In this document: piece by piece, positions 6,921-30,439 of the stretch
Layout of the letters: each line of letters starts with the position of its first letter
How positions within the stretch are numbered: position 1 is the stretch's first letter
Source of the DNA: a virus
DNA length: 31,801 nt
Virus record (IMG/VR): IMGVR_UViG_3300044645_000573
Coordinates: 1 to 31,801 of that record
Strand: one strand, 5' to 3'
The notes under the pieces: model-generated
Databases searched by the model: none
Told to the model about the DNA's origin: nothing
The model's input: only the letters and a program-made list of their open reading frames with translations
Program-made: the position numbers and the translations under genes

Positions 6921-6923
6921 CGA

Positions 6924-12536: not shown

Positions 12537-12545
12537 GGAGTGCAG

Positions 12546-13313
12546 ATGGCGATTTCAGATGTGCTGTATAAGGCGTGCCTTGAACACTTCACCGCAAACC
12601 CCTCGGAGATCGATCCGAAGTTCGGCGGTGATCCAGCCAAGGCAGCAGCCGCATTCGCAGAATCGGGCAAGACGATGACACAGTTGTTTCAGGAGTTGGC
12701 TCAGATCAAGAAGACCACTCCCGCACCGGCTCCGTCACCGAACCCGACCGCCCCCTCGGGTATTCAGATCCCCGAGCCGCCGCGTGAGGACATCAATCAG
12801 ATCCTCACCCGCCTCAAGTCTGAGGTGGTAACCAACGGCGATGCGTCCAATGCAACCAAGGACGCACTTGTTCGTACAGGAGGGTACACCCTTGATTCGA
12901 TCGCAATGCTTGTTGCCGGTATTCGTACCGGTGCAACGCAGCAGATCAACGAGGCAGTCACTCTCCTTGGAACCAAAGACGAGTACGATCGCGTGATCGG
13001 ATTCGCAGCTACGCTCCCGGCAGCAGAGGTCTCGCACCTGCGTAATGCTCTGTCTGGTCCGGGTTGGCAGACCGTTCTTCTGGGTATTCAGGCGCGGATG
13101 GTCGCCTCTCGTGGTATCGGGACTTCTCGTGAGGGAACCCCGATCAACCACGTACCCGGAAACAGCGGCGTGACCAAGATGGTCTTCCTTGACTACAACC
13201 AGTATCTCGCGGCATTCCGCGATCCGAAGTATTACACGGATCCGGCGTATCGTGATGCGGTTGCTGTGGCTGCTGCCGACTTCATGACCAAGAATCCGAA
13301 GATGACGGGTTGA
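12546..13313 (+). CDS. Probable capsid assembly scaffolding protein (T7 gp9-like)
   Basis: This 255-residue protein lies between portal and capsid genes, the place of T7 gene 9 (307 residues). Scaffolds direct capsid shell assembly and are then lost. Sequence conservation in this family is low, so the call rests on position plus form: a Pro/Ala-rich, probably flexible segment near residues 60-80 (TTPAPAPSPNPTAPSG), helix-rich middle, and a C-terminal YLAAFRDPKYYTDPAYRDAV region, followed by a Lys-containing tip that could contact the shell. AAGGAG at 12535-12540 is five bases before ATG 12546; GTG at 12540 is too close to that site. A hairpin and a long non-coding leader follow. Confidence 0.8.
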   Translation: MAISDVLYKACLEHFTANPSEIDPKFGGDPAKAAAAFAESGKTMTQLFQELAQIKKTTPAPAPSPNPTAPSGIQIPEPPREDINQILTRLKSEVVTNGDASNATKDALVRTGGYTLDSIAMLVAGIRTGATQQINEAVTLLGTKDEYDRVIGFAATLPAAEVSHLRNALSGPGWQTVLLGIQARMVASRGIGTSREGTPINHVPGNSGVTKMVFLDYNQYLAAFRDPKYYTDPAYRDAVAVAAADFMTKNPKMTG

Positions 13314-13671: not shown

Positions 13672-14706
13672 ATGATCTTTGCTCCTATGGCTAACAGTGC
13701 GTCCAACGGTGGCGTTGACCGCACGGGCCTTTACCTCCCCACGTACACTGGTGAGGTTCTCACGTTCTTTCAGGACAACCTTCTTCTGACCGGCCTCGTT
13801 GATGCGAAGCCCGCAGTCAAGGGTTACGAAGTTCAGTTCAGTCGCTTCGGTCAGGTCAACTCTGAGCAGCACGAGTTGAATGCCGAGATTCTCGGTACCA
13901 ACGCTGAACAGGCGAAGGTGTCGTACTACCTCGACAAGCGTGCCATCATCTCCGCAAACACGATGGATGATGTGGAGAACGAGCTTGCCCAGTGGGAGAC
14001 TCGTTCCAAGTTGGCGGCTGAGCAGGGTGCGGAAATCGCACGCCGAATGGAGAAGCGAGTCGCTGCTCTGATCTGCAAGGCTGGTCTCACTGCCGCCATC
14101 TCGGGTACTTCGTTCCCCGGTGGTGGTATCGGTGGTACTGGTGCTGTGAAGCTGAACACGAACTTCACCAGTTCGGATCCCACGGTGTCCAGTGCCGCGA
14201 TCTGTAAGGCCATTGATGATTGGCTGATCTGGCGCGATCAGGCCAACCACCCCGATGGCGAGATCTACTGTGTGATTCCTCCCCAGCAGTGGCACGGTCT
14301 TCGCAACTTCAACGGCGTGATCTACGTCGCCGCGAACATCAGTGCTACGGCTGCTGCTTCGGCTACGGGCCTGAATCCCTTCATGCCCAACCTGTCGGTG
14401 GGTGCGTCCCGTAAGGACTTCCTCCTGTACAAGGGCGTGAAGATCTACCAGAGCAACTTCATCCCCAGCACGAACACGCTGACCAGCGGGTATCTGGACG
14501 AAGCCAACACCTACGGCGGCGACTTCACCAAGGTCTTCGGTGCGATCTGGCAGCGTGAGGCTGTCGGCTTCGTCACCGTGCGTGCCCCCAAGGTTGAGGC
14601 GTGGCGTACCCCCAGTCGTCAGAACGAGACTCTGATGACCTCGATGATGACTGGTGGTGGTGCGGTTCGTTGCGAACTGGCTTGCACCCTCACCCACACC
14701 GCTTAA
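13672..14706 (+). CDS. Major capsid protein (T7 gp10-like)
   Basis: This 344-residue protein (T7 gp10A has 344) is the HK97-fold shell subunit. Points of agreement are the N-terminal TYTGEVLTFFQDNLL region, FSRFGQV followed by a loop, and the helix-rich spine with VSYYLDKRAIISANTMDDVENELAQ and ARRMEKRVAALICKAG, followed by a Gly-rich turn. Codon use is visibly biased to a few codons (CGT, AAG, AAC, GGT), as expected for the most expressed gene. The GGAG at 13661-13664 supports ATG 13672; ATG 13687 is a later alternative. No slippery sequence with a long second frame, as for T7 10B, is evident at the 3' end. A separate small gene follows after 33 bases. Confidence 0.93.
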   Translation: MIFAPMANSASNGGVDRTGLYLPTYTGEVLTFFQDNLLLTGLVDAKPAVKGYEVQFSRFGQVNSEQHELNAEILGTNAEQAKVSYYLDKRAIISANTMDDVENELAQWETRSKLAAEQGAEIARRMEKRVAALICKAGLTAAISGTSFPGGGIGGTGAVKLNTNFTSSDPTVSSAAICKAIDDWLIWRDQANHPDGEIYCVIPPQQWHGLRNFNGVIYVAANISATAAASATGLNPFMPNLSVGASRKDFLLYKGVKIYQSNFIPSTNTLTSGYLDEANTYGGDFTKVFGAIWQREAVGFVTVRAPKVEAWRTPSRQNETLMTSMMTGGGAVRCELACTLTHTA

Positions 14707-15147: not shown

Positions 15148-15164
15148 CATCTCAACATCTACAT

Positions 15165-15200
15165 GCCCCTACTTATGCGACAGCAAGGTAGGGGCTTTTA
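15165..15200 (+). terminator. Strong intrinsic terminator after the capsid block
   Basis: GCCCCTAC (15165-15172) and GTAGGGGC (15188-15195) form a perfect GC-rich eight-base-pair stem followed by TTTTA. Its place, right after the capsid genes and before tail tube A, is that of T7 T-phi. Confidence 0.85.
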
Positions 15201-15213
15201 CCGAAAGGAAACC

Positions 15214-15825
15214 ATGACAACTATGCTTCGATGGTCTCGGCTCAGTGCCGTTAATGCCATCCTCCGTGCGGCAGGTGAGGCCCCCGTCAACAGTCTTGAG
15301 TCAGGTGTCAATGACACCCTGATTGCGGAGGCTGTGCTTGATGAACACACTCTGCGTTGGCTCACAGCAAACAACATCGTATCGTCCACGTTCATTCAGG
15401 AGTGGACACCGGATGATGATGGGTTCATCAACCTCCCAACCGGCACACTGTATGCCAAGCCCACTGATCCAGACATGCCCTATGTCCAGCGAGGATCCAG
15501 TCCCACACGATTGTGGAACGTGACCGACAACACCTACGTGTTTGAGGAAGCAGTTGAACTGAGGGTGACCGTGGGTGTGTCCTTTGAGGAACTCCCTGTC
15601 TCATCGCAGCAGGCCATCGTTGACTCAGCGCGGGTTGAGTATCAGATGTTCCAGCAAGGCGATCCCGCAGTTCACGCACTACTTAGCAATGAGGCAATGC
15701 GAAGTCGCATTGTCGGTATTGGCAAGGATGCCTCTGCTGATGGTAAGACCGTCTTTGATTCCAAGCACAGCAACGCATACAAGTGGGCGTTGATTCGACG
15801 CTACTCACCCGGAGGCCGTTCGTGA
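15214..15825 (+). CDS. Tail tubular protein A (T7 gp11-like)
   Basis: This 203-residue protein (T7 gp11 has 196) would form the adaptor ring between portal and the rest of the tail. The N-terminus LSAVNAILRAAGEAPVNSLE closely resembles the [20 protein letters not shown] of T7 gp11. Also visible are LRWLTANN, INLPTGTLYAK, RLWNVTDNTYVF and the end DSKHSNAYKWALIRR. AAAGG at 15204-15208 is five bases before ATG 15214. The frame is open back to an ATG at 15163, but that would place the terminator inside the coding region and is rejected. The next gene starts in its stop (GTGA). Confidence 0.93.
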   Translation: MTTMLRWSRLSAVNAILRAAGEAPVNSLESGVNDTLIAEAVLDEHTLRWLTANNIVSSTFIQEWTPDDDGFINLPTGTLYAKPTDPDMPYVQRGSSPTRLWNVTDNTYVFEEAVELRVTVGVSFEELPVSSQQAIVDSARVEYQMFQQGDPAVHALLSNEAMRSRIVGIGKDASADGKTVFDSKHSNAYKWALIRRYSPGGRS

Positions 15826-17930
15826 CTACACCAGTGAATATCCCCTCGATGATCTCGGGGGTCTCCCGTCAGCCCTCAGACCAGCGGCTTGCTTCTCAGG
15901 TTGAGGAAGCGGACAATGTGACGCTGAAGCTGACTCGCGGCTGCGAGAGGCGTAACGGCACCAGACCTATCTGGTCTGCTGCCTCTGATCGAGCAGTCAA
16001 CATCGCGCCCTCAGCAGACAACTACTGGATCAGATTCCTGCGAGATGAGACTCGTATGTATCTGATCTGCATCAATCCCACAGCCTCATCCGGCGACACC
16101 GTTCGTGCTGTGAATCTTGCCACTGGTGATCTCGTGACTGTCACCTATGACACAACGTATGGTGACCCCAAGACCTATCTCAGGACTGGAACAGGTAAGT
16201 TGCGGCACACCGTGTCCGGTGATACCACGATTGTCTCCAATGGCAATGTAACGCCGGCCCTCAGTGGTTCGAGTACCTCGTACACCTTTGGCGGCAAGTC
16301 GGTTGATGATTCGACTTGTACTCACTTCAAGGCGACATACCTTGACTTCGACAACCCGCCGACAGTCAACGGTGAGTATTGGTATGCACAGAAGGACTCG
16401 GTTGGATGGCCCGCTGGGTACTATGTGTCACAGAATGTTGGTACCGCTGGTCCGAAGTACAAGCGGATACGCACACCTGAAGCCAACTACACCATGGACC
16501 CGCTGACTATGCCGGTGAAGATCTTCTTCAACGGTTCATCGTTTGTGGTTTCCTGTATTCAGTGGGGTTCTCGGCTAAGCGGCGACAGTGTGACCAACCC
16601 CAGTCCAGACTTCACTGGACAGGCCATCAATGCGATCACCTTTCACGGAGATCGGCTGTACTTCGGTTATGCCAATCGAATCTGGGGTTCTCCAATGGGG
16701 GACTACTGGAACACATGGCTTGACAACTGGCAGGTAGTTGGGGACACGGACTTCGTATCTGGTCTTCTCCCGTCTGAAGGTGTCTCGTTTGTTTCCGACC
16801 TTGCGTCCTTCGAGAACGGCCTCGTTGTCTTCGGCACCAATGACCAACAGTTCCTTGTGACCACCACCGATGGTAGTCCCATTGCACCCGGAACATTTGG
16901 TATCATTCCATCCACAAGAGAGTCGCATTCATCTCTGGCTCGTCCCCTGTACTTGGGTAAGGCTCTGTACTGGGTGAGTTCACTGAACACCAAGTTGATG
17001 GAGTACCGCTATACCGGAAACGGTCTGGTGAATATGGCTATCAACTGTTCCTCCCATGTGAACGGCTATCTACCAGCAACTCCAATCATGCTTTCAGCAT
17101 CATCGACGTATGGGATGATCTTCCTGTCGTCGTCCGATGCACCGAGTACGCTTCATGTTCACACCCTCTTGTTGATGGGTGAGCAGAAGGTTCAATCGGC
17201 GTGGTCTAAGTTTGCTTTCAATGGTGATGTGGCTGTTCACTGCTGTATGGGTGACTCGCTGTACTTGCTCTTGAAGAGGTTGGGTAAGTACTACCTAGAG
17301 TATGCGTCGTTGGCGGACACGACAACCGACTCGTTGCTTCCGGTCCATGCCAGAATCGATGGGGCATACGCTCTGTACGGCACGTACGATCCGGTAGCAA
17401 ACGAAACAGCGTGGGCCTTGGAGTTCACCGATGAGGCTGTTGACACTGTTGTTCTCACTGAAGAGTTCACGGGTCGCGGCGGTATCTCCGTCAGTGTTGA
17501 GAACAACGGCGGAACCGAAGTGGTCGCCACTGGGGACTACTCGTCAGGTCTTGTCTATGTCGGGCGATCCTTCGACTCTCGTGTTCGATTGAGTCCGCCT
17601 GTTGTCAAGGACCAGAACGGTGCCGCCAAAGTGGGCATCACCACAATCGTCACCATGAGCCTGAACATCATGGAGTCCGGTTACTTGGATATCGTCAAGA
17701 CACCATATAGGCGCGAACCGTTCACGTACACATACACCACCCTTGAAACAGGTGTGTCCATGTTTGGTGTCATCTCGTTGTTGTCCGGTGTTGAGACAAT
17801 CACCACCGCAGTAGGAATGAAATCCAACGCCAACAACACAATCGATATCACGAGTTCATCACACCTTCCATTCCGTGTGACAAGCGGGGCGTTCAACGTC
17901 CGCTTCACACCTAGCAGGAGACCAATCTAA
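15822..17930 (+). CDS. Tail tubular protein B (T7 gp12-like)
   Basis: This 702-residue protein (T7 gp12 has 794) would form the tail nozzle. The opening VNIPSMISGVSRQPSDQRLASQVEEADNV is the typical start of gp12 proteins, with the ISGVSRQP motif and then CERRNGTR. The body is beta-rich with many Gly/Thr/Asp turns, consistent with the nozzle's beta-propeller fold. GTG at 15822 has GGAGG at 15811-15815 six bases upstream and overlaps the stop of tail tube A as GTGA. A GTG further upstream at 15783 is in frame but inside the previous gene. The last base is shared with the next gene. Confidence 0.93.
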   Translation: MTTPVNIPSMISGVSRQPSDQRLASQVEEADNVTLKLTRGCERRNGTRPIWSAASDRAVNIAPSADNYWIRFLRDETRMYLICINPTASSGDTVRAVNLATGDLVTVTYDTTYGDPKTYLRTGTGKLRHTVSGDTTIVSNGNVTPALSGSSTSYTFGGKSVDDSTCTHFKATYLDFDNPPTVNGEYWYAQKDSVGWPAGYYVSQNVGTAGPKYKRIRTPEANYTMDPLTMPVKIFFNGSSFVVSCIQWGSRLSGDSVTNPSPDFTGQAINAITFHGDRLYFGYANRIWGSPMGDYWNTWLDNWQVVGDTDFVSGLLPSEGVSFVSDLASFENGLVVFGTNDQQFLVTTTDGSPIAPGTFGIIPSTRESHSSLARPLYLGKALYWVSSLNTKLMEYRYTGNGLVNMAINCSSHVNGYLPATPIMLSASSTYGMIFLSSSDAPSTLHVHTLLLMGEQKVQSAWSKFAFNGDVAVHCCMGDSLYLLLKRLGKYYLEYASLADTTTDSLLPVHARIDGAYALYGTYDPVANETAWALEFTDEAVDTVVLTEEFTGRGGISVSVENNGGTEVVATGDYSSGLVYVGRSFDSRVRLSPPVVKDQNGAAKVGITTIVTMSLNIMESGYLDIVKTPYRREPFTYTYTTLETGVSMFGVISLLSGVETITTAVGMKSNANNTIDITSSSHLPFRVTSGAFNVRFTPSRRPI

Positions 17931-18463
17931 TGGTCACTACGACCATTGCTGTTGCTGCTGTCTCAGCGGCGGCTGCAATGAAGGCATCTTCCGATGCCAA
18001 TAAGGTCGCATCACAGAATCAGAGAAACGCAATCGCGGCACAGAAGTCAAATGAGGCTCTGGCTGCTGTTGACACCGCCAACAAGATTCAAGCCAACGCA
18101 CGCACACAGGAGGCACGACGCAAGGCTCGTCGCTCCGTACTGACCTCTCGTGGTCTGTCCGGTGGTGCTTCGGCCTTGGCCCTCGACAACGCAGATATTG
18201 CCGGATCCCTTGGGAACCAGACCGCTATCCTGTCCGATCTGGATCGGGTACGGGCTGGGCTTGCTATCGATACCGGAAACCGTGTTGGTCAGTACCAGTC
18301 TCAGAAGTCAAGCGTGGGCTTGAGTGGTTTGACTGGTGCCCTTCAGGGTGCGGCCATGGGTATGCAGATGGGTCAGGCGTTTGGCGGCGGTGGAGGCGGA
18401 GGCGGTGGGGAAGACTACATGACCCCTGAAATGCTGAAGGCAAGAGAGGCGGTGGGGTCGTGA
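17930..18463 (+). CDS. Internal virion protein (T7 gp14-like)
   Basis: This 177-residue protein (T7 gp14 has 196) would, as in T7, be ejected and form the channel portion in the outer membrane. It has an Ala-rich, weakly hydrophobic N-terminus (TTIAVAAVSAAAAMKAS), a Gln/Asn/Ala-rich helical middle, SVLTSRGLSGGASALALDNADIAG, and a long glycine run near residue 155 before an acidic end. The pattern of many small residues and Gln matches gp14. The order gp12-gp14-gp15-gp16 supports it. ATG at 17930 overlaps the TAA of the previous gene by one base. Confidence 0.85.
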   Translation: MVTTTIAVAAVSAAAAMKASSDANKVASQNQRNAIAAQKSNEALAAVDTANKIQANARTQEARRKARRSVLTSRGLSGGASALALDNADIAGSLGNQTAILSDLDRVRAGLAIDTGNRVGQYQSQKSSVGLSGLTGALQGAAMGMQMGQAFGGGGGGGGGEDYMTPEMLKAREAVGS

Positions 18464-21363
18464 GTCAAGTAGTATCTCCAACTTCATTCCTTGGTGGCAA
18501 CATCACACCACAAGGACAGACAATCCTACCTTCGGGCGGGCTACTTCCTCAACAGGAAGTCTTCAGAGGTCGAGATCAGTTGTCCGAACTGGTCAACGCC
18601 CTGTCCAATGTCGGTGGTGCTGTTGCTCAGGTTGTCGAACGCAACCGGATTGATAAAGCACAGGCAGAGGCAAAGAAGGATCAGGAACAAGCAAAGATCC
18701 GACAGGCCAAGTCAGAAGAGGAACGCATCGCGGCTCAGCAAGAGCGTGAGAAGTACACCTCATACGAGCAGGGGCTTGCTCAGGCTAGGGCCAAGAGCGT
18801 CGAAGACGGGAACCCCGGCGTTGTTCGGGACTATCTTGCCGCGTTCCGCGGTTCTGATGTCTCTGAAATCAACATCCATGCCAACAGTGCATGGGCACAG
18901 ACGCAGCAAGGCATTCTTGATGACCAGAAGCGTGCCCTGATCGACCAGCGAGAGGCTGAGGCCAAGGCCAAGGCTGATGTTTCGGCACACAATAACGGTG
19001 CCCGACAGATTGCTGAGCGAACAAGCACAACACTGAAGACCGCATTCACGGATGAGTCCTCTCCGCTGTTCCAGCAGATCTCAGAGATGCGTGGCTCCGT
19101 CAAAGACCAGCGTGCTGCGATCTTCAACGCACTGTTGGAGGGTATCTCTCAGGATCCCGAGACAAGTCACAACGGATATTTCGACGGTAAGACGCTGGAT
19201 CCCTCCATGCGTGACTACCTTGAGATCCAGACCAACGAGATCCACACCAAGATCATCGAGCATCAAGCAAAGATTGACCGCGAGGTCAATGAGACAATCC
19301 GAACTGAGGCTCTGGACAACGCATCGGCGGTGTTTAGAGAGAACCCAGCCGGGTTGTTCGGCTATCTGTTCGATGATGGAGGTGTGTACGACTCAAAGGA
19401 TGTCAAGGAACCCGAGTTCAACGCTGCTGTCAGTCGCGCCATGGACACACTCATGTATCCCGGCAAGGACAACATCACCAACGGTGAACAGTTGCACGAT
19501 GTCGTGATGCGAATGCGGGAGTTCGAGTCGTACCTCTCAACCAAGTTCGGTGATCGCTTCAATGCCGACACCGATACTCGAATGCACTCACTCAAGCAGG
19601 TCGTGTCGGATGTATCCCGCACCTACATCGAGGCCAATGGTCCAAACTACATCAAGGATCGTGCCGCCAACCTGATGGTTCCACGAGATAACAGCAACTC
19701 AGATGCCATGAACCTTGCCGTGAAGTTCTGGCAGGATGCTGGCGGAATGGTTCCAAAGGGCATCGACCTTCGGACATTCACTGTTGAGAACATGCTCCCA
19801 ATCGACCACGCGGGACACCCAAATGCGTATCTTCAGAAGGTCAAGGAAGGTATCATCGATTCTTTGGACAAACTCGAAACCGAGGCGAAGAAGACGGAGT
19901 GGTATGAGAAGAAGCGAACAACGATTTCTTCACGAGAAGCCTTCCTGTCTTCGGTGTACGACTCAGGAATAAAGCCTAGTGTCGATGAGTTGCGTACTCA
20001 CGCCAATGATCTCACTGTGCTGGGATCGTTGAACAGTCTTGCCAGCACTGACATGACTAAACAGCGTGAGCCTAATGTACACTCACGGATTGTACAGGCC
20101 CAGACGCAACTGGCCCTTGGTATTGGATTGACCAGAGAAAGCATGTTGAACACTTTGCGGTCTGACGACCCGAAGTTGTTTAAGCAGAAAGTTGAGATTT
20201 ACCGTGCCGCATCAGACCTTGACGCAGAGATCTTTGGGTTGGGTTATTCAGAGGCCATGGCTCCAAACGCCATGGCTGGTCTGTTATCTGATGACCCGAC
20301 CGCCTTTGCTTCTTCTATGGGCTTCGTTCTTTCTGGTGGTGGTGTCGCTGGTGCGAACTTCACCAACACAATCAGAGAGAGCGGACTTGATGATGCGAAA
20401 CGATCCACAGCCGTCGCACTGGCAGTTGTGGCAGAAGCCAACTACACAAGAGGAATCGTGGACGCGACGAGTTGGTCTGCTCTACAGAATCTCAAGAACA
20501 CTGCCCTCAACGGATCCTTCGTTGAAGTGAGTCCGAACGACAGGAAGGACACGCGCCTGAATGTCGGAGACTCACATCGTGCTACGCTTGACAGCAATAT
20601 CAAGCGTGCATTGCAGGAGGCTGTTGGAAGTGGGAAGATTGTTGATGTTCGTGGGATGAACCCGTTCATCTCCGCACTCCCTAAGATTGCCGCAGACTAC
20701 ATGGCCTACGGAATGGATCGACCCGCAGCGTGGAAGGCCGTGATGCTCGACATGAAGACCTCTGGCTTTGCTATGCAGTACGATAGTGAGGATGAATCAC
20801 TGACTGTCATCCGTGATCCACACAATCACTTCACTGATGCGAAGCACGCATCTGAGCAAGCACGCCAGATGCTTGACTCTCCGCTACCAATGCCACTAGT
20901 CGGTGATGCTCAGCGAATGTTTGCACCCATCGGCAATCCCGCTGACCTGAAGGGGAAGTCGATGTGGGAGATCCTGAAGTACAACGACAAGTCTCTGCCT
21001 GATCTGAAGGATGTGGACATTCGTGTCTACTATGCCGATGATGTTGCCATGCAGCGTTCCAGTGCAAAGGCATTCATGATTCAGAGTCTTGCTGATGTTG
21101 TGCTTGGTGGTGGTGGACTTGTCCAGTACCGAATCAAGGGATCTACTGGATCATTCACAACCATCAAGACCAGTGCCGAGGCCGGTGATGGTCGCCCTAT
21201 TCGTTGGTCTAACTCCGCACCCAAGGTTGCATACCCGCGTCCGAAAGAGCGTGGGGTCATCAACTATGACTTTGGTGGTGCATTGGACAACCTGATGAAC
21301 CCGACAAGAGGCTATGACTTCAACGCCGCTTGGGAGAACCTCATCAGTGCAGGTAAGCAGTAA
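18460..21363 (+). CDS. Internal core protein (T7 gp15-like)
   Basis: This 967-residue protein (T7 gp15 has 747) would be a core protein ejected into the periplasm to build the DNA conduit with gp16. The N-terminus is Gly/Pro-rich, then residues about 60-110 form a charged coiled coil (KAQAEAKKDQEQAKIRQAKS, then EEERIAAQQERE). The rest is long and helical with no enzyme motif that I can recognise. GTG at 18460 overlaps the gp14-like stop as GTGA, with GAGAGG upstream. Identity rests on position, length and helical character. A terminator follows directly. Confidence 0.82.
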   Translation: MSQVVSPTSFLGGNITPQGQTILPSGGLLPQQEVFRGRDQLSELVNALSNVGGAVAQVVERNRIDKAQAEAKKDQEQAKIRQAKSEEERIAAQQEREKYTSYEQGLAQARAKSVEDGNPGVVRDYLAAFRGSDVSEINIHANSAWAQTQQGILDDQKRALIDQREAEAKAKADVSAHNNGARQIAERTSTTLKTAFTDESSPLFQQISEMRGSVKDQRAAIFNALLEGISQDPETSHNGYFDGKTLDPSMRDYLEIQTNEIHTKIIEHQAKIDREVNETIRTEALDNASAVFRENPAGLFGYLFDDGGVYDSKDVKEPEFNAAVSRAMDTLMYPGKDNITNGEQLHDVVMRMREFESYLSTKFGDRFNADTDTRMHSLKQVVSDVSRTYIEANGPNYIKDRAANLMVPRDNSNSDAMNLAVKFWQDAGGMVPKGIDLRTFTVENMLPIDHAGHPNAYLQKVKEGIIDSLDKLETEAKKTEWYEKKRTTISSREAFLSSVYDSGIKPSVDELRTHANDLTVLGSLNSLASTDMTKQREPNVHSRIVQAQTQLALGIGLTRESMLNTLRSDDPKLFKQKVEIYRAASDLDAEIFGLGYSEAMAPNAMAGLLSDDPTAFASSMGFVLSGGGVAGANFTNTIRESGLDDAKRSTAVALAVVAEANYTRGIVDATSWSALQNLKNTALNGSFVEVSPNDRKDTRLNVGDSHRATLDSNIKRALQEAVGSGKIVDVRGMNPFISALPKIAADYMAYGMDRPAAWKAVMLDMKTSGFAMQYDSEDESLTVIRDPHNHFTDAKHASEQARQMLDSPLPMPLVGDAQRMFAPIGNPADLKGKSMWEILKYNDKSLPDLKDVDIRVYYADDVAMQRSSAKAFMIQSLADVVLGGGGLVQYRIKGSTGSFTTIKTSAEAGDGRPIRWSNSAPKVAYPRPKERGVINYDFGGALDNLMNPTRGYDFNAAWENLISAGKQ

Positions 21364-21405: not shown

Positions 21406-21417
21406 GAAAGGAGAACT

Positions 21418-24400
21418 ATGTCACAGACAGTTACGCAGGATCGCATTGGCGCGGTGTTGAACACACCGGAACGCCCCGAGCCGGGACCGAGTACGTTCTA
21501 CGGGTCCAAGTTTGAGCCGCCCGAGATGCACCTTGACCTTGAGACCGGCCTTCCCAAGCGAGGTCGGGCACCTCACGGACTCATTGATGAGTTCAAGGCT
21601 TCCCGCCTCAACCCCATGGGCGAAGAGGTTGGGCTTGAATACTTCGGCGGTCCCCGGATCCTCACCGGATCTGGTGTCTATCGCAAGTGGACGAATGAAG
21701 CACTGTTCACGAACCGCATGGCCTCGATCAATGCCATGACAGAAGATGAGCGGAAGTCCAACGGTATTGCCGATTGGAATGGCACATTCAAGACAGGTCT
21801 TGAGCAGTGGAAGAACAAGTACACAAACACTGAACGTCAACTTACTGGTTGGACTGATGAAGAAGTCGCAACCATGGGTGGCCCAGAGAAGGTTGATGAG
21901 CAGTTCCGCATGTGGTCTCAGGCGTACTTCGCTGAGCAGACCCTCAATGATCCTGCCATTGCTGACGAGGGGTGGCTCCGGTGGGCTGCTACGGGCATTC
22001 CCGGCCTTGCTGCCGATGTCTTTGGTGATCCCAGCACCTATGCCACGGTTGGTGCGGCAGCACTGACCAAGGTCATAGCCAAGCCGTTGACCAAGGAGTT
22101 CGGCAAGCTGGCCGTTCGTCAAGCCGGTAAGTCAATGTTCCGCAACACGGCTCTGCGTGAGGTTGCTGGATCTCTCATCAGTGCCGATGCGAAGTTGCAG
22201 TCATCCAAGTTGGCAAAGGTTGTTGACTCTCTCTACGTGAGTCACTGGTTGCCTGATGCTGTTGGGCAGAACGTGACGCAGACCTATGGTCAGTACATGG
22301 GTCTCAAGAGCAAGTTGGCTGCGGCTGAGCAGGATTACACCGATCTCCCTGAAGCACTTGGCATGGCGGGGTTGTTCGGTATGGGCTTCGCTGCACTTGG
22401 TATGGGTGGCACCTATGTGGCTAAGAAGTGGAAGGACAAGGCTGCGGCATCCAAGGCTATGCGCCCTATCCCCGCTTCGGTCGTACAGGCTGGTCCCGTT
22501 CCGACCCCCGGCCCACACGCACCGACTCAGACCGCATTGAATGTGCTTCACGCCGGTGCGATCATGGACAATCTGAAGCGCATCACTGGTGATCCTCAGA
22601 CCATGCTCCACCTCTGGGGCGACACGAACAAGTGGAACCGATGGGACCGCCTGTTGGGTACCACGGTTGCTGACCCCATGCGTCTGGTCCGTCTGCTTGA
22701 GAAGAACGCTTCGATGGAAGAGGTTCAGGCATGGCATGACGATCTCGACATCCGTGCCGACTTCGCGGAGAAGGCCCTCGCGGCAGGTAAGCCGTTGCCA
22801 AATGCAAGTTCTCTTGTGTCTCGACTCTGGGCACGCCACTCGACCAAGAACAATCTCATGGGAACCATTCCCGTGTCAGCGTTCCCTCAGCGTGGTGGTC
22901 TGTCTTCTCCTATCTCCCCCAATGCCAACGCAACGGTGAGCAAGACGGGACGAGCCAGAGTGTTCTTCAACGGTGGATTCCCGGTGTTCGACAAGGTTGG
23001 ACCGAAGAAGATGGTATCAATGCCGAACGGTGTTGGTGTCGAACTTCCCAAGCACATCCTCATCGATGCCTCGGATACCACCAAGGCTCTGTACATGCTC
23101 GGAGCAACCCCCACACCCGGCAAGGGTCGTGTGCTGTGGGATCACCTCCGTTCGCAGTTCCCCGCATTGAATGATTCCGAGATCGCGGGTCTCGCAACCA
23201 AGACGCGCCAACTGGTGCGGCACGAGATCGATCAGGTTCTTGAGCAGCAGGGGTCGTATGACTCACCTATTCATGTGCTAAGTGACTCGTGGTCAACGCT
23301 GCTTGGCTCCATGGATCGTGATCCGATCACTGGTAAGGTCATTCGAACTCTTCAGGATCGCTTCCAAGAACTCGAACACTCCCCTGAGCGGAAGCGATTC
23401 CGTGATGAGGCTGTGGCTCGGTTCGGTTCAACCTCTGTTGACAACGAACTTCGCATTGCCGATGTGATTGTCATGCAGATGGCAAAGTCAACTGGTGAGT
23501 CTGTAGACAAGATCTACAGTCAGTTCTCCGCACAGGATGGCCCTGCTGGTGCCAACGCACTCTTCCAGTTCTACTCATGGCACGGAACCGGTGCAGAACG
23601 CATTGCTCAGAAAGGCGGCTTCAGCACTGACTACATCGGTGATGGTGAAGGCAACCAGATGTTTGGTTGGGGTCTGTACTTTGCGGATAAGGACACGACT
23701 GGTCTGCATTACAGGCAGATTGGCTTGGATAAGAAGGGGTCACAACTTCAAATCCTAAACTCATCTGCTCTTGTGTTTGCTCCTGATATTGAAGATCTTT
23801 CCACGAACGTCCAAGAAGATCTCTACAATCTACTCGATGTCGTGCGAGTGTTCTCATCTAGCGACAATGAGATGGTAGTCATCCAGCGGGGACTCGAATC
23901 GATTACCAAAATCAACCAGAACAGGGCGTATCTGGAATCGACCCTAAACAAGGTACTCTCTTCCGCCAATGGGTTAGACAAGGCAGATATTGATGGTTCA
24001 CTTCACAATCCTGTTCTTAAGCCAACAATCTACAACGAGTTAAACAACGCCTCTTTTAGATACGCATTCGGAGACTCAACCCGGATCGTTGACGCATTGG
24101 ACGAGTTGTTTGACACCTTTCACGATTCCAGTATATTCGATGCGTCGCGTGTTAGTGAGGATTGGATTGACTACAAACTCAGCGATGGTGGAAGATCGCG
24201 CGTTAGGAAAGAGATTCTGAAGTTGGGTGGAGTGATACAAGAACTTCTACACAAAGCCAAGGATCTTGATGCTAAAGAACTAGAGAATCGCTTCTATAAT
24301 GCGATTGAAAGACACAACGAAGAGGCGCGAAGCCACACACCTACCGCCTCTCTCTACAGAGTTGAACACATCCACGAGAAGGAGGACTATGCAATCTGGG

Positions 24401-27400
24401 ATGCACCTCTAGACGATCAACCTGCTCGAACCAAAGAGGTCATCAAGAAGTTGATGGGTATTGAGGAAGACCCCAACTCCAAAAGCTCTCTTACAGAGTG
24501 GGATGCCTTTATCGCCATCCTGCAGTTCAATGGTGTGTCCACATTTGATAACTTCTACCGAAACATGGCAGTTGTCCTCGACCGAGTGCTGGCTGAGCCA
24601 GATAGACAGTGGCAGGAGTACTCGCTGTTTGATTCGGTGAAGAACTCCCCAATGTACAAGCGGGCCATCTCCGATGGTTTCCGTCTTCACATGGAGTCCA
24701 CCGGCTCCAAGGGCAACAGTTCCGCAGACAAGCGCATGTCACTCCTTCTGGTGGAAGAGGGTCTTCCGGGTCATCGATTCTTGGATCAAGGGTCTCGTCG
24801 CAGCAAAGCATGGGATGATCCCAAGGCCACCTTCAACACTGTTGTGTACAACGGCGGTGCTGTCCGGGCAATCGCTGAACAGTTGTGGCAACGCAACGGC
24901 GGCACAGGTATGCCAATGGCCTCGTACGAACTGGTCAATGGTGCCCAGAGAATCGTCCGGGCACTACAGAACCCCGACCACTCGTCCTTCGTTCACGAGA
25001 TGGGTCACGCCTACAAGGATATGGTCGCAGTCTACAACCCGGAACTGCATAGCCGCATCAAGGTCGCCCTTGGCGGTACCGCACATGGTCCCGTCACTAC
25101 AGCAATGCACGAACACTGGGCGCGTGCGTGGGAAGCCTACAGGCGTGAAGGCCGTGCCCCGACGAAGTACCTGAAGCAAGCCTTCAAGGACTTTGCTCAG
25201 TTCATGGTTGACATCTACAAGACGATCATTGGTACACCACTGGACAACAAACTCAGTCCGCAACTCCGCAAGTTGATGGATGAGATGGTTGTCCAGTTCG
25301 AGAAGGATCTGGATGACTATGGCAAGAAGAAGCAGATTCCTCCGAATCTGATGAACCCTACCACTCGTCTGGATGAAGCACTGAAGGCAGTCAAGTTGGC
25401 GCACGAGGCTCGAATCGGTTCACTGAACTCCGGTGAGACTGACAAGGACCAGTTGCAGGCTTTGGATGCTGCTGTTGGTGTTGCCAACAAGACGCTGGCG
25501 GAAGTCAACACACCCAACGCTGATAATCCGTTGGCTAACTACAACCCCAACGCACCTCTACAGGACATCATCGGCGTTGTGCCACTGGCAGCGCGTGGTG
25601 AGAAGCAGGATGTTGTGAATACTGTGAAGATCCTGAAGAACGCCCCCATACTTTCCTCAAAGGATGGCAAGGCATGGCTCAGTTCATATCTGACCAACAA
25701 GGCTCTTGCAGCGGTCAGCAAGGTCGGCAACAAGTTCCTGTCTACTGGTCGATACGAGATCGTGGCAAACTCTGTTCCGGCTATCCGTGCCCTCGGTGCG
25801 TGGATTGCTGATGTGGGTCCGGGTGCCAAGGCTGCTGCTGGTCTGTTCGAGAAGTCATTCTTGAATCTGGCTGCTGCTGCCCATGCTGCTCGTAGAACTG
25901 CTGGTGAGTTCAAGGAGAAGTACCGCACCCTGCTTGAGAAGACAGGATGGGATGAGACTCAGGAGAGAACGATCGTTCGTTCGATCATGCGTCAGTTGGC
26001 TGGTATGGCTCAGGGTCCGATGACCGCAGATGAAGCGGCTGTTCACTCGATGATGCGGGAGTATCTTGACTACTGGGGTAGTGCCGCTGTCGAAGCAGGA
26101 ACCATCGGTCACCTTGACGAGAACTACCACCCGATCAGTATCCTCAAGTCGCAGCATCACAGGCAGGGTGAAGTGATCGATGTTGTCTTTGACAACTGGA
26201 AGACAAAGTTCACCGCGCCCGATGCTCCGCTGCATCGAAAGACCCTGAAGCAATTGGGTTGGATTGAGAAGAAGCCGGATGGTTCATGGGGCAGGCGAGC
26301 CGATATTCTCCCCAGCCCTACAGGAGGAACTCCTGTTCCAATGGGCACATTGATGGATCTCCCAGATCAACCCAGTGTCCCCGGCACAAGATCCCTCCGT
26401 GAACTCTACCTTGAGGCTCTGTTGGATCCAACCACAGACTCCAAGGGTGTACCTGCTCGTGGCCTTCTGAAGGAAGCATGGGCATCAGTACACAAGGCAC
26501 TGGGTCATGCAGAGGTCGATACCTATGTCCCCGAGGCAGTCCACGGTCTATCCGTGGATCACACTCAGGCCCGTAGGATTGAACGCTCTGTCTGGTTGGA
26601 CCCAAGGTTGGAAGAGTTCATTGACTACAACATTGAGAACATCGTGGATGACTATGCCACGACTCTTGGTGCCAAGGTCAAGATTCAGGAATCAACCAAT
26701 GCCTTCGTCAAGGAACTGACCGGAGTAGACCGCAAGGACATCTCCGCAGAGAATCTGGTTGCTGCCATCAAGGATCAGGTGTTGATGAACACCGAACCCG
26801 GTGAGGCACGTAGGAAGGTGGAAGAGGCTTTCTCCTTCATTGAAGGTAAGGTCAGCTTCATCACCAGAAACGGTATTGCAACCGACCCAGCCCGAGACAT
26901 GGGTTGGGCTAACACAATGTCCAGCATTGCAATCAATCTCTCACAGAGTGCGATTGCTGGTAGGAACTCCGCTCAGCAGATCACTGTTGAATGGACAACC
27001 ATGTTGGCGAATGCTGCGTTCTCAAATGGCGTTACTGGTGTGCGTGACTTTGTTGTAGGTGTACTCCGCAGTGCCTCGGGTGATGAACTCAAGGGGCTGT
27101 ACCAGCACACCGAATATATGCGCTCACACACCCAGCGAATGATCTACGACATGGATCAGGACAACTCGGTTGTCCGCTCATGGTCAGACGCAGCAATCAA
27201 GAATCCGTTAAATCGAATCAAGGAGACAGCAACCAATCAACACACCTCAGGAATGCGGCGTGTTGGTGAGACTCTCGTGGCGGTGACCAATGGTCTCTCG
27301 CAACTGAGTCGCGGACTGGCCCTTGAGTCTCAGGTCAACCGCTTCACGCAGAACATGGCAGCAAGCATTGAACATGCCAAGATGTCCCGTACCTACCGCA

Positions 27401-28338
27401 AGGGGGCATGGGAGAAACTGTCGAATGCACTGCTTGCGGACCAAGCACGCCTTGCAAGTCTGCCACAGAAGGAAGCTGAGAAGGCATTCCGTGGTCATGC
27501 TCGTACGGCTGGGTTCGGTTCCGACTACTTGTTCGCTCAGCGTCTACTCTCGGCTGGTCTTCTCGATCCAGAATCCATTGCGGGTCTGAATCAGTTGAAG
27601 AACTTGGCGAGGGAAGATCTGTTCACGACCAAGAACGGAATCAACTATGATGCGATGAACCGTGCCGGTGGACTCACACGAGGGTTCTCCAATCGTCGTG
27701 AGTTGCTGGGATTGATCGACAAGGTGAAGGCTTTCGTGGAAACCGAGATCGACTCTCGTGCCACCAAGGTCTCCGTGCTTGACACCTTCACGGCTGGTGC
27801 CTCTGCCAAGGATCGCTTGGCTATGGCCTACACCTCGTTCGCACGAACGTGGTTCAACCGCACCATGATGGAGCGTCTGGGCAACCAGAGGCTTCATACC
27901 GCGGTGGGTGTGCTTGGCTTCACCCTGATGGCAGAGGTGTTGTACAACGCGCTCAATCGTATCGTCTATGACGGTGCGACGAAGGAAGATGAGATCGCTA
28001 AGTGGGAAGAGAATCCCGGTGCCACATTCTTGGACACGATGTCCCGCAGCAACTTCCTCGGAAGTGCGAACATCCTGACCCGTGTGGCAGCAGGTATCAT
28101 TGCCGAACAGCGATTCTCTGCTCAACCGAACTATCCCGAGACTGTGGCGTATCGTACGCTCAGTTCTCTGGCAAAGTTGATGGTGTCCTATAGTGACGAT
28201 GTTGAGATGACCGCAAAGGACTGGAAACAGATCAATGCGGTTGTCCCGGCTCTGAACAACTGGCTCCTTCAAACCGTGGCTCGGGCAACCGGCTACAAGG
28301 GCATCGCAGGTTGGATGACCGGAGAAGAAGCAGATTAA
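21418..28338 (+). CDS. Giant internal virion protein (gp16-like) with PARP-type ADP-ribosyltransferase and zincin metallopeptidase modules
   Basis: This protein has 2306 residues; T7 gp16 has 1318. Residues 1-700 are helical, with a hydrophobic segment near 315-335. Residues about 715-1150 hold a PARP-like ART pattern: WHGT (His722), GDGEGNQMFGWGLYFAD (Tyr754), LYRVE (979-983) with IWDAPLDDQ, GSRRSK near 1125, and TVVYNGG near 1141. This matches the ART domain of phage polyvalent proteins. Residues 1190-1260 carry VHEMGH (His1193, Glu1194, His1197) and MHEHWARAWEAY (Glu1232 as probable third zinc ligand). The C-terminal about 1000 residues are helical with a hydrophobic stretch (GFTLMAEVLYNAL) and resemble other long podophage core proteins. 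There is no clear transglycosylase motif. As the last core protein it should be ejected into the host. The core-protein role is inferred from order and size; the ART and zincin are seen by motif. Confidence 0.88.
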   Translation: MSQTVTQDRIGAVLNTPERPEPGPSTFYGSKFEPPEMHLDLETGLPKRGRAPHGLIDEFKASRLNPMGEEVGLEYFGGPRILTGSGVYRKWTNEALFTNRMASINAMTEDERKSNGIADWNGTFKTGLEQWKNKYTNTERQLTGWTDEEVATMGGPEKVDEQFRMWSQAYFAEQTLNDPAIADEGWLRWAATGIPGLAADVFGDPSTYATVGAAALTKVIAKPLTKEFGKLAVRQAGKSMFRNTALREVAGSLISADAKLQSSKLAKVVDSLYVSHWLPDAVGQNVTQTYGQYMGLKSKLAAAEQDYTDLPEALGMAGLFGMGFAALGMGGTYVAKKWKDKAAASKAMRPIPASVVQAGPVPTPGPHAPTQTALNVLHAGAIMDNLKRITGDPQTMLHLWGDTNKWNRWDRLLGTTVADPMRLVRLLEKNASMEEVQAWHDDLDIRADFAEKALAAGKPLPNASSLVSRLWARHSTKNNLMGTIPVSAFPQRGGLSSPISPNANATVSKTGRARVFFNGGFPVFDKVGPKKMVSMPNGVGVELPKHILIDASDTTKALYMLGATPTPGKGRVLWDHLRSQFPALNDSEIAGLATKTRQLVRHEIDQVLEQQGSYDSPIHVLSDSWSTLLGSMDRDPITGKVIRTLQDRFQELEHSPERKRFRDEAVARFGSTSVDNELRIADVIVMQMAKSTGESVDKIYSQFSAQDGPAGANALFQFYSWHGTGAERIAQKGGFSTDYIGDGEGNQMFGWGLYFADKDTTGLHYRQIGLDKKGSQLQILNSSALVFAPDIEDLSTNVQEDLYNLLDVVRVFSSSDNEMVVIQRGLESITKINQNRAYLESTLNKVLSSANGLDKADIDGSLHNPVLKPTIYNELNNASFRYAFGDSTRIVDALDELFDTFHDSSIFDASRVSEDWIDYKLSDGGRSRVRKEILKLGGVIQELLHKAKDLDAKELENRFYNAIERHNEEARSHTPTASLYRVEHIHEKEDYAIWDAPLDDQPARTKEVIKKLMGIEEDPNSKSSLTEWDAFIAILQFNGVSTFDNFYRNMAVVLDRVLAEPDRQWQEYSLFDSVKNSPMYKRAISDGFRLHMESTGSKGNSSADKRMSLLLVEEGLPGHRFLDQGSRRSKAWDDPKATFNTVVYNGGAVRAIAEQLWQRNGGTGMPMASYELVNGAQRIVRALQNPDHSSFVHEMGHAYKDMVAVYNPELHSRIKVALGGTAHGPVTTAMHEHWARAWEAYRREGRAPTKYLKQAFKDFAQFMVDIYKTIIGTPLDNKLSPQLRKLMDEMVVQFEKDLDDYGKKKQIPPNLMNPTTRLDEALKAVKLAHEARIGSLNSGETDKDQLQALDAAVGVANKTLAEVNTPNADNPLANYNPNAPLQDIIGVVPLAARGEKQDVVNTVKILKNAPILSSKDGKAWLSSYLTNKALAAVSKVGNKFLSTGRYEIVANSVPAIRALGAWIADVGPGAKAAAGLFEKSFLNLAAAAHAARRTAGEFKEKYRTLLEKTGWDETQERTIVRSIMRQLAGMAQGPMTADEAAVHSMMREYLDYWGSAAVEAGTIGHLDENYHPISILKSQHHRQGEVIDVVFDNWKTKFTAPDAPLHRKTLKQLGWIEKKPDGSWGRRADILPSPTGGTPVPMGTLMDLPDQPSVPGTRSLRELYLEALLDPTTDSKGVPARGLLKEAWASVHKALGHAEVDTYVPEAVHGLSVDHTQARRIERSVWLDPRLEEFIDYNIENIVDDYATTLGAKVKIQESTNAFVKELTGVDRKDISAENLVAAIKDQVLMNTEPGEARRKVEEAFSFIEGKVSFITRNGIATDPARDMGWANTMSSIAINLSQSAIAGRNSAQQITVEWTTMLANAAFSNGVTGVRDFVVGVLRSASGDELKGLYQHTEYMRSHTQRMIYDMDQDNSVVRSWSDAAIKNPLNRIKETATNQHTSGMRRVGETLVAVTNGLSQLSRGLALESQVNRFTQNMAASIEHAKMSRTYRKGAWEKLSNALLADQARLASLPQKEAEKAFRGHARTAGFGSDYLFAQRLLSAGLLDPESIAGLNQLKNLAREDLFTTKNGINYDAMNRAGGLTRGFSNRRELLGLIDKVKAFVETEIDSRATKVSVLDTFTAGASAKDRLAMAYTSFARTWFNRTMMERLGNQRLHTAVGVLGFTLMAEVLYNALNRIVYDGATKEDEIAKWEENPGATFLDTMSRSNFLGSANILTRVAAGIIAEQRFSAQPNYPETVAYRTLSSLAKLMVSYSDDVEMTAKDWKQINAVVPALNNWLLQTVARATGYKGIAGWMTGEEAD

Positions 28339-28393: not shown

Positions 28394-30439
28394 ATGCTCA
28401 GCAGTGTAAGATATGTATTGACTTCACCGGCTCCGGTGACGTTCTCGTTTGGTTCGTTGGAACTGTTGCCGGATGAGATGGTCAGTGAGGATACGCAGAT
28501 CAATGTGACTCTGAACGGCTCCCCTTTGACCATCACCACTGACTACACCGTCAATGAAGCCACAGATCAGATCACCATCGTTGGTGCCACTGCTGCTGGA
28601 CTTGGTGATGGTGATGTCGTCATCATCTCTCGTGAGACCAAGAAGGATGTGCCGTATGTCACGTTCGTCAACAACAGTCTGATCACTGCTGATGACTTGA
28701 ACCTGACCACGTTGCAGACATTCTTCATCGCACAGGAAGCGTACGACCTCGCGTCGAATGCTTTGCAGAAGGATCCCACTGAAACCTATTGGGATGCCAA
28801 GGGCATCTCGATTGAGAACGCATCACCCGCGACCACGGGAAACGGTCTGGTCACCAAGAATCAGGTCTACGATATCATGGGCGGTGCAGAGACCGCATCC
28901 GTGGATTCTGTTGAAGAGTGGTGTCTTACTGGTGACGGTATCCTTGACACCTTTGCTCTGCCCGGAATCAGGCAACCTAGCACATCGTGTGAGTATCTGG
29001 TGACCATTGATGGTCACCTAATCCACTGTACGTGCCCCACGGGTGGCTCATGGTCAAGTTCACCACACAGTAGCGGATCCGGTTCACTGTCTGAGGCACA
29101 GGCAACACTGGTGGACGACACATTCCCAACCGGAGTGTGCATCACGAGTGGCCCAACGGCTGCTGCAACAATCGTCACTAACCTGACTGCGTTGAAGACC
29201 AGCCTTGAGGCTGAGCATCTGACTACCGGCATGAACTACGGCATCGCGGCATCCAGCGAGTTCTATGGAACCTTGGATGATGCGATCGCGTTCTTCACCA
29301 CGGGTGCTGGTGCCGCTGGTAACGGATACTACAAGTACTGCCCGTCTGATGTCTCGATCATCCCGATCGCATACAACATCGACTCGACTGCACGTACCAT
29401 TGAGTTCTCCTATCCACCCAAGGCTGGTTGGAAGATTCAGGTTCGTGCATGGGTTGGTACTGTCCGTGCTGACTTCGCTGAGGAATCCATCAATGGATCC
29501 GCTCTGCGTAACGCCACGGTTACCTATGACAAGTTGACCGCAGATGCAAACTTTGCAGCCGTATATCGGTTCGTGGTGTTTGACACCAACGGGTTGGCTT
29601 CTGTGTCCACAATCTCCAGTGCCCACATCGTTGGGTTCGACACCAGTGTTCGACTCAATCGGTTGGATCAGATGGCTGTGCCTACGGCCAGCGTCAGTTT
29701 GAACTGGCAGAAGATCACTGCCCTCACAAGTGGTACGACCACCTATGAGGCCGTGAACTACGGACAGTTGACGGGTGCAGTCAGCACAATCAACTCCACC
29801 ATCTCCGTTCTTCAGAGCAACGTGTCTGGTCCGCAGAACGCGGGCTTCGATCAGAACTATGCAGGTACCCCAAGTGACCTGTTCTTCCAGAACTCGTTTG
29901 ATTCACGATCCGCTATCACACCGCCATCACTGTGTGATGTGACGAAGTGGCGAGGTGTTGTCTGCAAGGAAGCACGCAGGACATCAGCATACCGAGCCGC
30001 CAACAAGGATCTTGATGATCCGGTGCTGAAGTATTTCGTACCGCGCCGTGTGACACTGGTGTGCTACGGTCGATTGTACAATGTGGATGCCTCGGGTAAC
30101 CCCACTACTCAGTTCTCTGGTACTGACCTCAACCATGTGTTCCGCTTTGAACGCTGGGACGAAAGCGCTGATGTTGGTTTCTATCCCTATGTGAGTGTTG
30201 CGTCGGGTGTGTATAAGTACCTGTTGTCTCCCGCTGAGTACGCCAAGGATGGTGCGGATCGTGAGAATGGGAACTCCCTGCCGGGCGGTGCATCAGCCTA
30301 TCTCGAAATCGAAACAACTGCACCCTTCCGTACTTGGTTGTGTTTCGAGGATGGAAGCGGGAATCCCCTTGCTCTGTGCAAGGCGGCAACCCCTGCAACG
30401 CGCGGTGTGATTCAGATCATCGCAGAAAGAGGTTTGTAA
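28394..30439 (+). CDS. Tail fibre protein (T7 gp17 N-terminal domain)
   Basis: This 681-residue protein (T7 gp17 has 553) would be the receptor-binding fibre. Residues 1-150 match the gp17 tail-attachment domain in layout: VRYVLTSPAPVTFSFGSLELL, ITTDYTVNEATDQITI, DVVIISRET, ITADDLNLTTLQTFFIAQEAYDL and DAKGISIENA. The middle includes a Gly/Ser-rich segment and probable beta-helical or triple-stranded repeats (YDKLTADANF, YEAVNYGQLTGAVSTINSTI). The last about 180 residues (from FQNSFDSRSAI) look like a distinct globular tip with aromatic and Arg residues and probably contact the host. GGAG at 28383-28386 precedes ATG 28394. Its stop shares one base with the next gene. Confidence 0.92.
   Translation: MLSSVRYVLTSPAPVTFSFGSLELLPDEMVSEDTQINVTLNGSPLTITTDYTVNEATDQITIVGATAAGLGDGDVVIISRETKKDVPYVTFVNNSLITADDLNLTTLQTFFIAQEAYDLASNALQKDPTETYWDAKGISIENASPATTGNGLVTKNQVYDIMGGAETASVDSVEEWCLTGDGILDTFALPGIRQPSTSCEYLVTIDGHLIHCTCPTGGSWSSSPHSSGSGSLSEAQATLVDDTFPTGVCITSGPTAAATIVTNLTALKTSLEAEHLTTGMNYGIAASSEFYGTLDDAIAFFTTGAGAAGNGYYKYCPSDVSIIPIAYNIDSTARTIEFSYPPKAGWKIQVRAWVGTVRADFAEESINGSALRNATVTYDKLTADANFAAVYRFVVFDTNGLASVSTISSAHIVGFDTSVRLNRLDQMAVPTASVSLNWQKITALTSGTTTYEAVNYGQLTGAVSTINSTISVLQSNVSGPQNAGFDQNYAGTPSDLFFQNSFDSRSAITPPSLCDVTKWRGVVCKEARRTSAYRAANKDLDDPVLKYFVPRRVTLVCYGRLYNVDASGNPTTQFSGTDLNHVFRFERWDESADVGFYPYVSVASGVYKYLLSPAEYAKDGADRENGNSLPGGASAYLEIETTAPFRTWLCFEDGSGNPLALCKAATPATRGVIQIIAERGL

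Follow-up and report, generated by a model that had tools for sequence, protein, structure and literature searches.

A divergent ART-PolyVal domain next to a zincin in the gp16-slot protein of a T7-like podophage

To our knowledge, there is little experimental proof of a virion-delivered ADP-ribosyltransferase (ART) outside T4. The experimental case, T4 Alt, is an ART that is packaged in the virion and injected alongside the DNA (PMC5512222). For polyvalent proteins, Iyer et al. (2017 and 2022) predicted such delivery, with virion packaging and processing by peptidases (PMC5512222, PMC9503650). The prototype that they cite is the virion RNA polymerase of Roseovarius Plymouth podovirus 1, in which an ART lies within a giant ejected podophage protein. 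A virion-delivered ART is an established idea and not a new one, and the genome described here fits it as a divergent new example. If a virion delivers an ART, the host is modified ahead of any phage gene being read, at a time when host defences are active and T7-like phages need the host RNA polymerase.

The giant protein and its place in the late module

The window analyzed here is a stretch of 31,801 nucleotides (IMG/VR record IMGVR_UViG_3300044645_000573), for which the original prediction had proposed a PARP-like ART inside a gp16-like ejected core protein. The genes run in the order of a T7-like late module (portal, scaffold, major head protein, tubular protein A, nozzle, 177-aa, 967-aa and 2306-aa proteins, and fibre), as follows.

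2..1372, plus strand: C-terminal part of a T7-type single-subunit RNA polymerase, cut off by the start of the stretch
10992..12536, plus strand: portal (head-tail adaptor), phrog_449
12540..13313, plus strand: scaffold/head assembly protein, phrog_1052
13672..14706, plus strand: major head protein, phrog_267
15163..15825, plus strand: tail tubular protein A, PF17212
15783..17930, plus strand: tail nozzle/tubular protein B, PF25675 and phrog_457
17930..18463, plus strand: 177-aa protein at the place of gp14 (internal virion protein), without a significant match to any family
18460..21363, plus strand: 967-aa protein at the place of gp15, without a significant match to any family
21418..28338, plus strand: 2306-aa giant protein, a single ORF in the gp16 position, putative polyvalent/ejection protein
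28394..30439, plus strand: tail fibre with a T7 gp17-type N-terminal domain, PF03906

The 2306-aa protein, which is preceded by a ribosome-binding site (AAAGGAG, 21407-21413), lies in the gp16 slot of this T7-like podophage. Like T7 gp16, it is large, stands between the gene in the gp15 slot and that of the tail fibre, and is the last of three consecutive late genes. The two differ in that neither sequence similarity to T7 gp16 nor an N-terminal transglycosylase, which T7 has, was found in the 2306-aa protein with Pfam, PHROG, NCBIfam, or PDB. T7 gp16 is described with a basic C-terminal tail, which is missing here, where the protein ends in GEEAD. The term gp16-like is thus borne out by position in the module and not by sequence. 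No peptidoglycan hydrolase was detected in the 967-aa protein.

The gene order was also surveyed in relatives. The Pfam model Phage_nozzle lacked the sensitivity for this survey, and the upstream genes were therefore clustered and then sampled with PHROGs. Of the ∼45 other contigs that extend far enough upstream, ∼24 have the ART protein behind a nozzle, an internal virion protein, and a gp15-size gene. Profiles of the internal virion proteins of these relatives gave no match to the 177- and 967-aa proteins of this phage.

Within the giant protein, the ART and a zinc peptidase lie between two long regions, and the layout is given below.

21418..23559, plus strand: N-terminal region, residues 1-714, without detected relatives and with a single hydrophobic peak at 313-331
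23560..23721, plus strand: N-terminal half of the ART, residues 715-768, with the His722 strand and GxGEGxQxFGWGLYFA containing Tyr754
23722..24345, plus strand: helical insert of ∼208 aa, residues 769-976, between ART strands 2 and 3, longer than in most homologues
24346..24873, plus strand: C-terminal part of the ART, residues 977-1152, matched by the profile, with the motifs from LYRVE to Asn1140 (LYRVE, W994-D995, Q1001, S1108, G1115, G1118, D1123, S1126-R1127, and Asn1140)
24955..25305, plus strand: zincin-like metallopeptidase, residues ∼1180-1296, HEMGH, phrog_9880 match with E 9e-17
25306..28335, plus strand: C-terminal region, residues 1297-2306, without detected relatives and with a hydrophobic peak at 2161-2179

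No close relative of the full-length protein emerged when its C-terminus was compared with viral contigs, its ART-zincin part with genome contigs, or its N-terminus with phage records. The zincin sits directly C-terminal to the ART, with HEMGH at residues 1193-1197 (24994-25008) and a presumed third zinc ligand, Glu1232 (25111-25113), conserved in 28/28 sequences. This is the HExxH motif with a downstream Glu ligand, and H1193, E1194, H1197, and E1232 are all conserved. The original prediction had overlooked the peptidase right behind the ART. Two unrelated enzymatic domains, ART and zincin, are found in one 2306-aa protein beside virion genes, as in polyvalent proteins (Iyer et al. 2017).

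The ART domain and its third catalytic position

The predicted domain, 23563-24870, corresponds to residues 716-1151 of ORF 21418-28338, and every motif named for it was found at the expected residues. These are WHGT (721-724, with His722), GEGNQMFGWGLYF (743-755) and FGWGLYFAD (with Tyr754), followed by LYRVE (979), IWDAPLDDQ (DDQ at 999-1001), LDQGSRR (GSRR from 1125), and NTVVYNGG (VVYNGG from 1142). The codons of His722, Tyr754, and Asn1140 are 23581-23583, 23677-23679, and 24835-24837, respectively.

An HMM was trained on 64 ART domains found in other phage contigs, with this phage's own stretch left out. The 2306-aa protein scored 115.2 bits (E 8e-35, among 302 sequences), the top score among 300 shuffles was 3.4 bits, and the motifs are thus beyond chance. 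The C-terminal half of the ART scored 58.9 bits by itself, and the score was still 58 bits when the diagnostic GEG..GWGLYFA motif was masked. PF18760 (ART-PolyVal) matches 62 of the 65 alignment members. The same Pfam model did not match this protein, and the Pfam PARP model aligned with residues 717-768 only, at a sub-threshold E of 0.07. By themselves, these two Pfam models would have left the ART call undecided.

Identity to the relatives is about 18-28%, and all family-invariant columns are kept (G741, GEG, Q747, GWGLYFA, Y765, S1108, G1115, G1118, S1126, R1127, N1140, and V1142). It should be noted that some columns were used to select the homologues (GEGxQ, GWGLYFA, SR, and N or T plus V at 1140/1142), while H722, Y765, S1108, G1115, G1118, and the preference for N rather than T at 1140 lay outside the selection. 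His722 and Tyr754 align with columns conserved across all homologues compared. The domain is a divergent member of ART-PolyVal, split by a long helical insert, and its assignment to the ARTs of phage polyvalent proteins was correct.

Structure prediction, proposed as a check, agreed. The 636-aa model of this phage's own protein is of moderate quality (pLDDT 69.6), and its BFVD matches are ART-PolyVal proteins (E 3e-10 to 1e-6). Against the PDB, the fold search with this model returned helical chance matches only, because the insert and the zincin dominate it, and a compact homologue was therefore folded instead (pLDDT 87). The top PDB match of the homologue was 9k3a_B (E 1e-5, probability 1.00, with modest TM-scores of 0.40/0.11), followed by tankyrase, RES toxins, PARP1, NatRT, and diphtheria toxin. 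The 9k3a_B chain is ORF27 of Anabaena phage A-4L, from the solved pre-ejectosome of this cyanophage (A4). No sequence similarity was detected between 9k3a_B and the ART profile, so this match is one of fold; PDB sequence searches with the 2306-aa protein or the family profiles also gave no matches. The models indicate that the family has the ART fold.

Strand 5 starts with an invariant Asn (Asn1140 here). The column is Asn in all 52 homologues compared, and the residue is therefore a family trait and not a sign of decay. Just past strand 5, 41 of 51 homologues have an Asp, where this phage has Asn1145; Asp1123 is located after strand 4. Asn1140, and not a Glu, most likely fills the third catalytic position, with the equivalence to PARP1 Glu988 drawn from motif comparison and strand order, not from superposition. 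The label PARP-type accordingly suits the H-Y layout and the fold but most likely not the third position: the catalytic Glu of the PARP H-Y-E layout, which serves polymer formation, was not found, and Asn1140 stands at the motif-equivalent position. With Asn in place of Glu, the domain is more likely to carry out mono-ADP-ribosylation, or to act as an NADase, than to make polymer as PARPs do, and since the residue is neither Glu nor Asp, activity is not assured.

Instead of transferring ADP-ribose to proteins, the domain could deplete or edit NAD+ as an NADase, or modify nucleic acid, and a third position other than Glu would suit this. The fold matches include RES and NatRT toxins, which act on NAD+. 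We consider this reading unlikely: Iyer et al. assigned the polyvalent ARTs to a clade akin to ARTs that modify proteins (PMC5512222), although the present results fit either activity. It is also unlikely that the ART is folded yet catalytically dead and retained for structure or binding within the ejection protein. The Asn at the presumed PARP Glu position, the long insert, and the strong divergence could be read in that way, but the family-invariant residues, including His722, Tyr754, Ser1108, and Asn1140, are all kept in a protein for which no relatives could be detected over the 700 and 1000 aa on either side, and an Asn shared by the whole family is not a lesion of this copy.

Probable virion delivery and proposed mode of action

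Virion delivery of this ART is likely by analogy, because of the gp16 slot, the ∼24 other contigs with the same order, the ART and peptidase of Caudoviricetes sp. vir555, and the A-4L pre-ejectosome chain. Taken together, we favor, as the probable reading, an ART-PolyVal domain and a zincin in a giant gp16-slot ejection protein that is packaged, ejected, and ADP-ribosylates the host early. The 2306-aa protein would be packaged in the head and exit the virion with the DNA. The zincin may then cleave the polypeptide after ejection, perhaps releasing the ART, which would transfer single ADP-ribose units from NAD+ to a host macromolecule in the first minutes, ahead of phage gene expression. The target could be a defence protein, a translation factor, or, as with T4 Alt, the RNA polymerase of the host.

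Because the gene belongs to the late structural module, its product is made late, and this would also allow an ART that acts late on host or virion proteins within the producing cell, with the virion copy incidental. We find this improbable, since the repeated joining of an ART to the gp16-slot protein among unrelated podophages and an ART-fold chain in the A4 pre-ejectosome fit delivery better, and T4 Alt is itself a packaged and injected ART (PMC5512222). That the protein is an unpackaged, cytoplasmic late protein merely at the T7 gp16 position would agree with its lack of homology to T7 gp16 but is improbable given the synteny conserved across many podophages and the A-4L counterpart in a solved pre-ejectosome.

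Comparison with known systems

By profile, the domain belongs to the same family as ART-PolyVal (PF18760, Tox-ART-HYD2 clade; Iyer et al. 2017, PMC5512222), whose polyvalent proteins also pair an ART with a zincin in one giant late-module protein and were likewise predicted to be packaged and injected. This copy differs in being too divergent for the Pfam model and in carrying the ∼208-aa insert, and this subfamily has Asn at the strand-5 position, for which PMC5512222 gives Asp (H-Y-D). T4 Alt differs in its ART clade, in phage morphology, and in being a stand-alone internal protein. The Roseovarius Plymouth podovirus 1 protein is an N4-type virion RNA polymerase, and its match to this ART subfamily is short and weak. 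In phiGT1, the ART is a stand-alone protein (gp5), unlike the fused ART here.

The vir555 protein gp54 (BK063671) likewise has ART and zincin in one giant protein and is a member of phrog_9880, which this phage's protein also matches. Its gene lies directly behind tubular protein A, nozzle, internal virion protein, and a gp15-size gene, and ahead of a tail protein. Identity between the two proteins is ∼26% across the zincin and the C-terminal half of the ART and 40% along a short N-terminal ART stretch, and similarity was not detected elsewhere in gp54. The vir555 record assigns an archaeal host.

The same slot holds the same zincin in Bordetella phage BPP-1 Bbp10, Pseudomonas phage AF gp16, and Cobetia phage Carin1 gp32, in which this profile found no ART. 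Carin1 gp32 has a PBECR5 nuclease and AF gp16 has LPD22/LPD23, and these differing domains suggest exchangeable cargo around a shared zincin. Tentatively, and with some doubt, the gp16 slot may be a general effector-delivery platform in which the shared zincin frees such cargo from the ejection protein once the latter is past the envelope, with an ART subfamily that has an unusual His-Tyr-Asn site. The cargo would be the ART here and in vir555, the nuclease in Carin1, and other domains in AF and BPP-1.

A-4L ORF27 is, like this protein, a giant protein behind a gp15-position gene, and its ART-fold domain carries YHGT and GSGTYF. Its ART lies near the C-terminus, unlike here, and Pfam domains were not found in it. 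ORF27 is built into the virion pre-ejectosome, and this link between ART-PolyVal, the gp16 slot, and a solved pre-ejectosome makes the delivery question testable in cultured podophages.

Homology and fold of the ADP-ribosyltransferase domain

The original prediction was a PARP-like ADP-ribosyltransferase (ART) domain inside a gp16-like ejected core protein, and every motif on which it relied was found at the predicted residues of a 2306-aa protein. The features under discussion are as follows.

21418-28338 (+): 2306-aa protein, one uninterrupted frame with a good ribosome-binding site
Residues ~715-1152: ART domain
Residues 1180-1296: zincin metallopeptidase domain (HEMGH 1193-1197, Glu1232)

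A Pfam search of this protein returned only a sub-threshold PARP hit (E 0.07, residues 717-768), and the model PF18760 (ART-PolyVal, the ART family of phage polyvalent proteins) gave no match. The N-terminal motif is widespread in phages, as at least 120 stretches in viral contigs match GEGxQx[FY]GWGLYFA. We aligned homologues that combine this motif with a C-terminal SR...[NT]xV; 62 of the 65 aligned sequences match PF18760. Against a profile built from 64 homologues, with the window left out, the window protein scored 115 bits (300 shuffles, ≤3.4 bits), and the remainder still scored 58-59 bits when the N-terminal motif was masked or removed. Based on these scores, we regard homology to the ART-PolyVal family as settled at the sequence level.

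Structure prediction likewise supports an ART fold. The AlphaFold2 model of residues 690-1325 (pLDDT 69.6) is more confident in the ART strands and zincin region and less so in a long helical insert. Its matches among viral structure models are ART-PolyVal proteins; a fold search against the PDB gave noise only. The model of a compact 215-aa homologue, L065 (pLDDT 87), matched ART-superfamily structures in the PDB. The top match, at E 1e-5 and probability 1.00, was 9k3a_B ("Cyanophage A4 pre-ejectosome"), followed by tankyrases, RES toxins, PARP1, NatRT, and diphtheria toxin, all with weak E values (0.02 and above) and TM-scores of ~0.3-0.5.

The 9k3a_B chain is ORF27 of Anabaena phage A-4L, matched over all 1717 aa. 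ORF27 is annotated "tail protein", and its gene directly follows ORF28 ("internal protein", gp15 position). ORF27 has no sequence similarity to the ART profile used here; its own motifs are YHGT at residues 1425-1428 and GSGTYF starting at 1444. The fold search gives no target coordinates, and we infer that this region is the part matched by L065. An ART-fold domain in a gp16-slot protein thus belongs to a solved virion structure; the A4 pre-ejectosome paper (PNAS 2025, PMC12002296) is cited by PMC12810830 and PMC12324425.

Active site

Every family-invariant residue is kept in the window ART. In PARP1, the motif NEYIVYD includes the catalytic-site Glu988. Comparison with this motif suggests that the third catalytic position is probably Asn1140, a column that is Asn in 52/52 homologues compared. 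For polyvalent ARTs, Iyer et al. described an Asp in strand 5 (PMC5512222). In most homologues, an Asp comes just after strand 5; at this position the window has Asn1145 and several relatives have Ser or Asn, so a catalytic role for it in the subfamily is unlikely. The PARP-type assignment holds for the H-Y layout and the fold, but the third position is most likely Asn rather than Glu. A probable His-Tyr-Asn site would argue against ADP-ribose polymer formation and favor mono-ADP-ribosylation or NAD+ cleavage.

The gp16 slot and the adjoining zincin

The window, 31,801 bases of a virus record, comes from a T7-like phage. Its 5' end falls within a single-subunit RNA polymerase gene, which is followed by genes for ligase, primase-helicase, DNA polymerase, and exonuclease and by a late module in the order portal, scaffold, major head protein, tail tubular A, nozzle, 177-aa, 967-aa, and 2306-aa proteins, and a tail fibre whose N-terminus is of the T7 type. 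Since none of the genes searched was recognised as a terminase, the record is probably an incomplete genome.

T7-type ejection proteins are encoded in the order gp14-gp15-gp16, and T7 gp16 has a transglycosylase and a basic C-terminal tail (PMC8954989). Of the ~45 contigs in which the ART gene is preceded by 2.5 kb or more of sequence, ~24 distinct ones have a nozzle-like gene upstream of the ART giant, usually separated from it by a ~170-290-aa gene and then a ~500-900-aa gene directly before the giant. By PHROGs, sampled upstream genes encode tail protein (phrog_394, phrog_376) and internal virion protein (phrog_418). Caudoviricetes sp. vir555 shows the complete gene order, with ART and zincin joined in one protein. 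The window's 177- and 967-aa proteins have no recognisable kinship to their counterparts in relatives, so "gp16-like" stands as a slot assigned by order and size.

No peptidoglycan hydrolase was detected in the gp15-slot (18460-21363) or gp16-slot (21418-28338) proteins; one is annotated or matched near the equivalent point in BPP-1, AF, A-4L, phiGT1, and Carin1. Other arrangements were also observed. Sulfitobacter phage phiGT1 gp5 (L159 4918-6081, 186 bits), annotated hypothetical, is a stand-alone ART of this family encoded between portal and scaffold genes. Contig L046 has two such domains ~980 residues apart in one 4747-aa frame (motif matches 4438-5403 and 7375-8346). The L001 giant (6623-10228) has an HNHPSG motif upstream of its ART, as in JAB/RadC-type domains.

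The zincin HExxH is kept in 14 of the 15 relatives aligned over that part, and the Glu1232 position is Glu in 28/28. This zincin domain is also present in giants that occupy the gp16 slot in Pseudomonas phage AF, Cobetia phage Carin1, and Bordetella phage BPP-1, from which the window-type ART is absent; the Carin1 giant has a PBECR5 nuclease. In BPP-1 Bbp10 (L162 9664-15822), zincin and slot are as in the window, with no ART by profile. Peptidases of this kind were proposed to process polyvalent proteins (Iyer et al., PMC5512222, PMC9503650). A common, putatively self-processing peptidase with exchangeable cargo fits these observations.

Proposed virion delivery and comparison with known systems

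With homology, family fold, gene position, conservation, and a structural precedent in hand, a course of events can be proposed. The 2306-aa protein would be packaged inside the head and exit the virion together with the DNA, perhaps with cleavage by the zincin it carries, and the ART may then modify a host macromolecule at the onset of infection.

Delivery of an ART by the virion, as originally suggested, is not a new idea. T4 Alt is a known virion-packaged ART (PMC5512222), and Iyer et al. (2017, PMC5512222; 2022, PMC9503650) predicted others among polyvalent proteins, including those of podophages. The window ART is a divergent addition to this class. The present analysis adds evidence from sequence for a copy overlooked by Pfam, the zincin next to it, the repeated presence of the family in gp16-slot proteins, its link to 9k3a_B, and the Asn at the putative third catalytic position of the subfamily.
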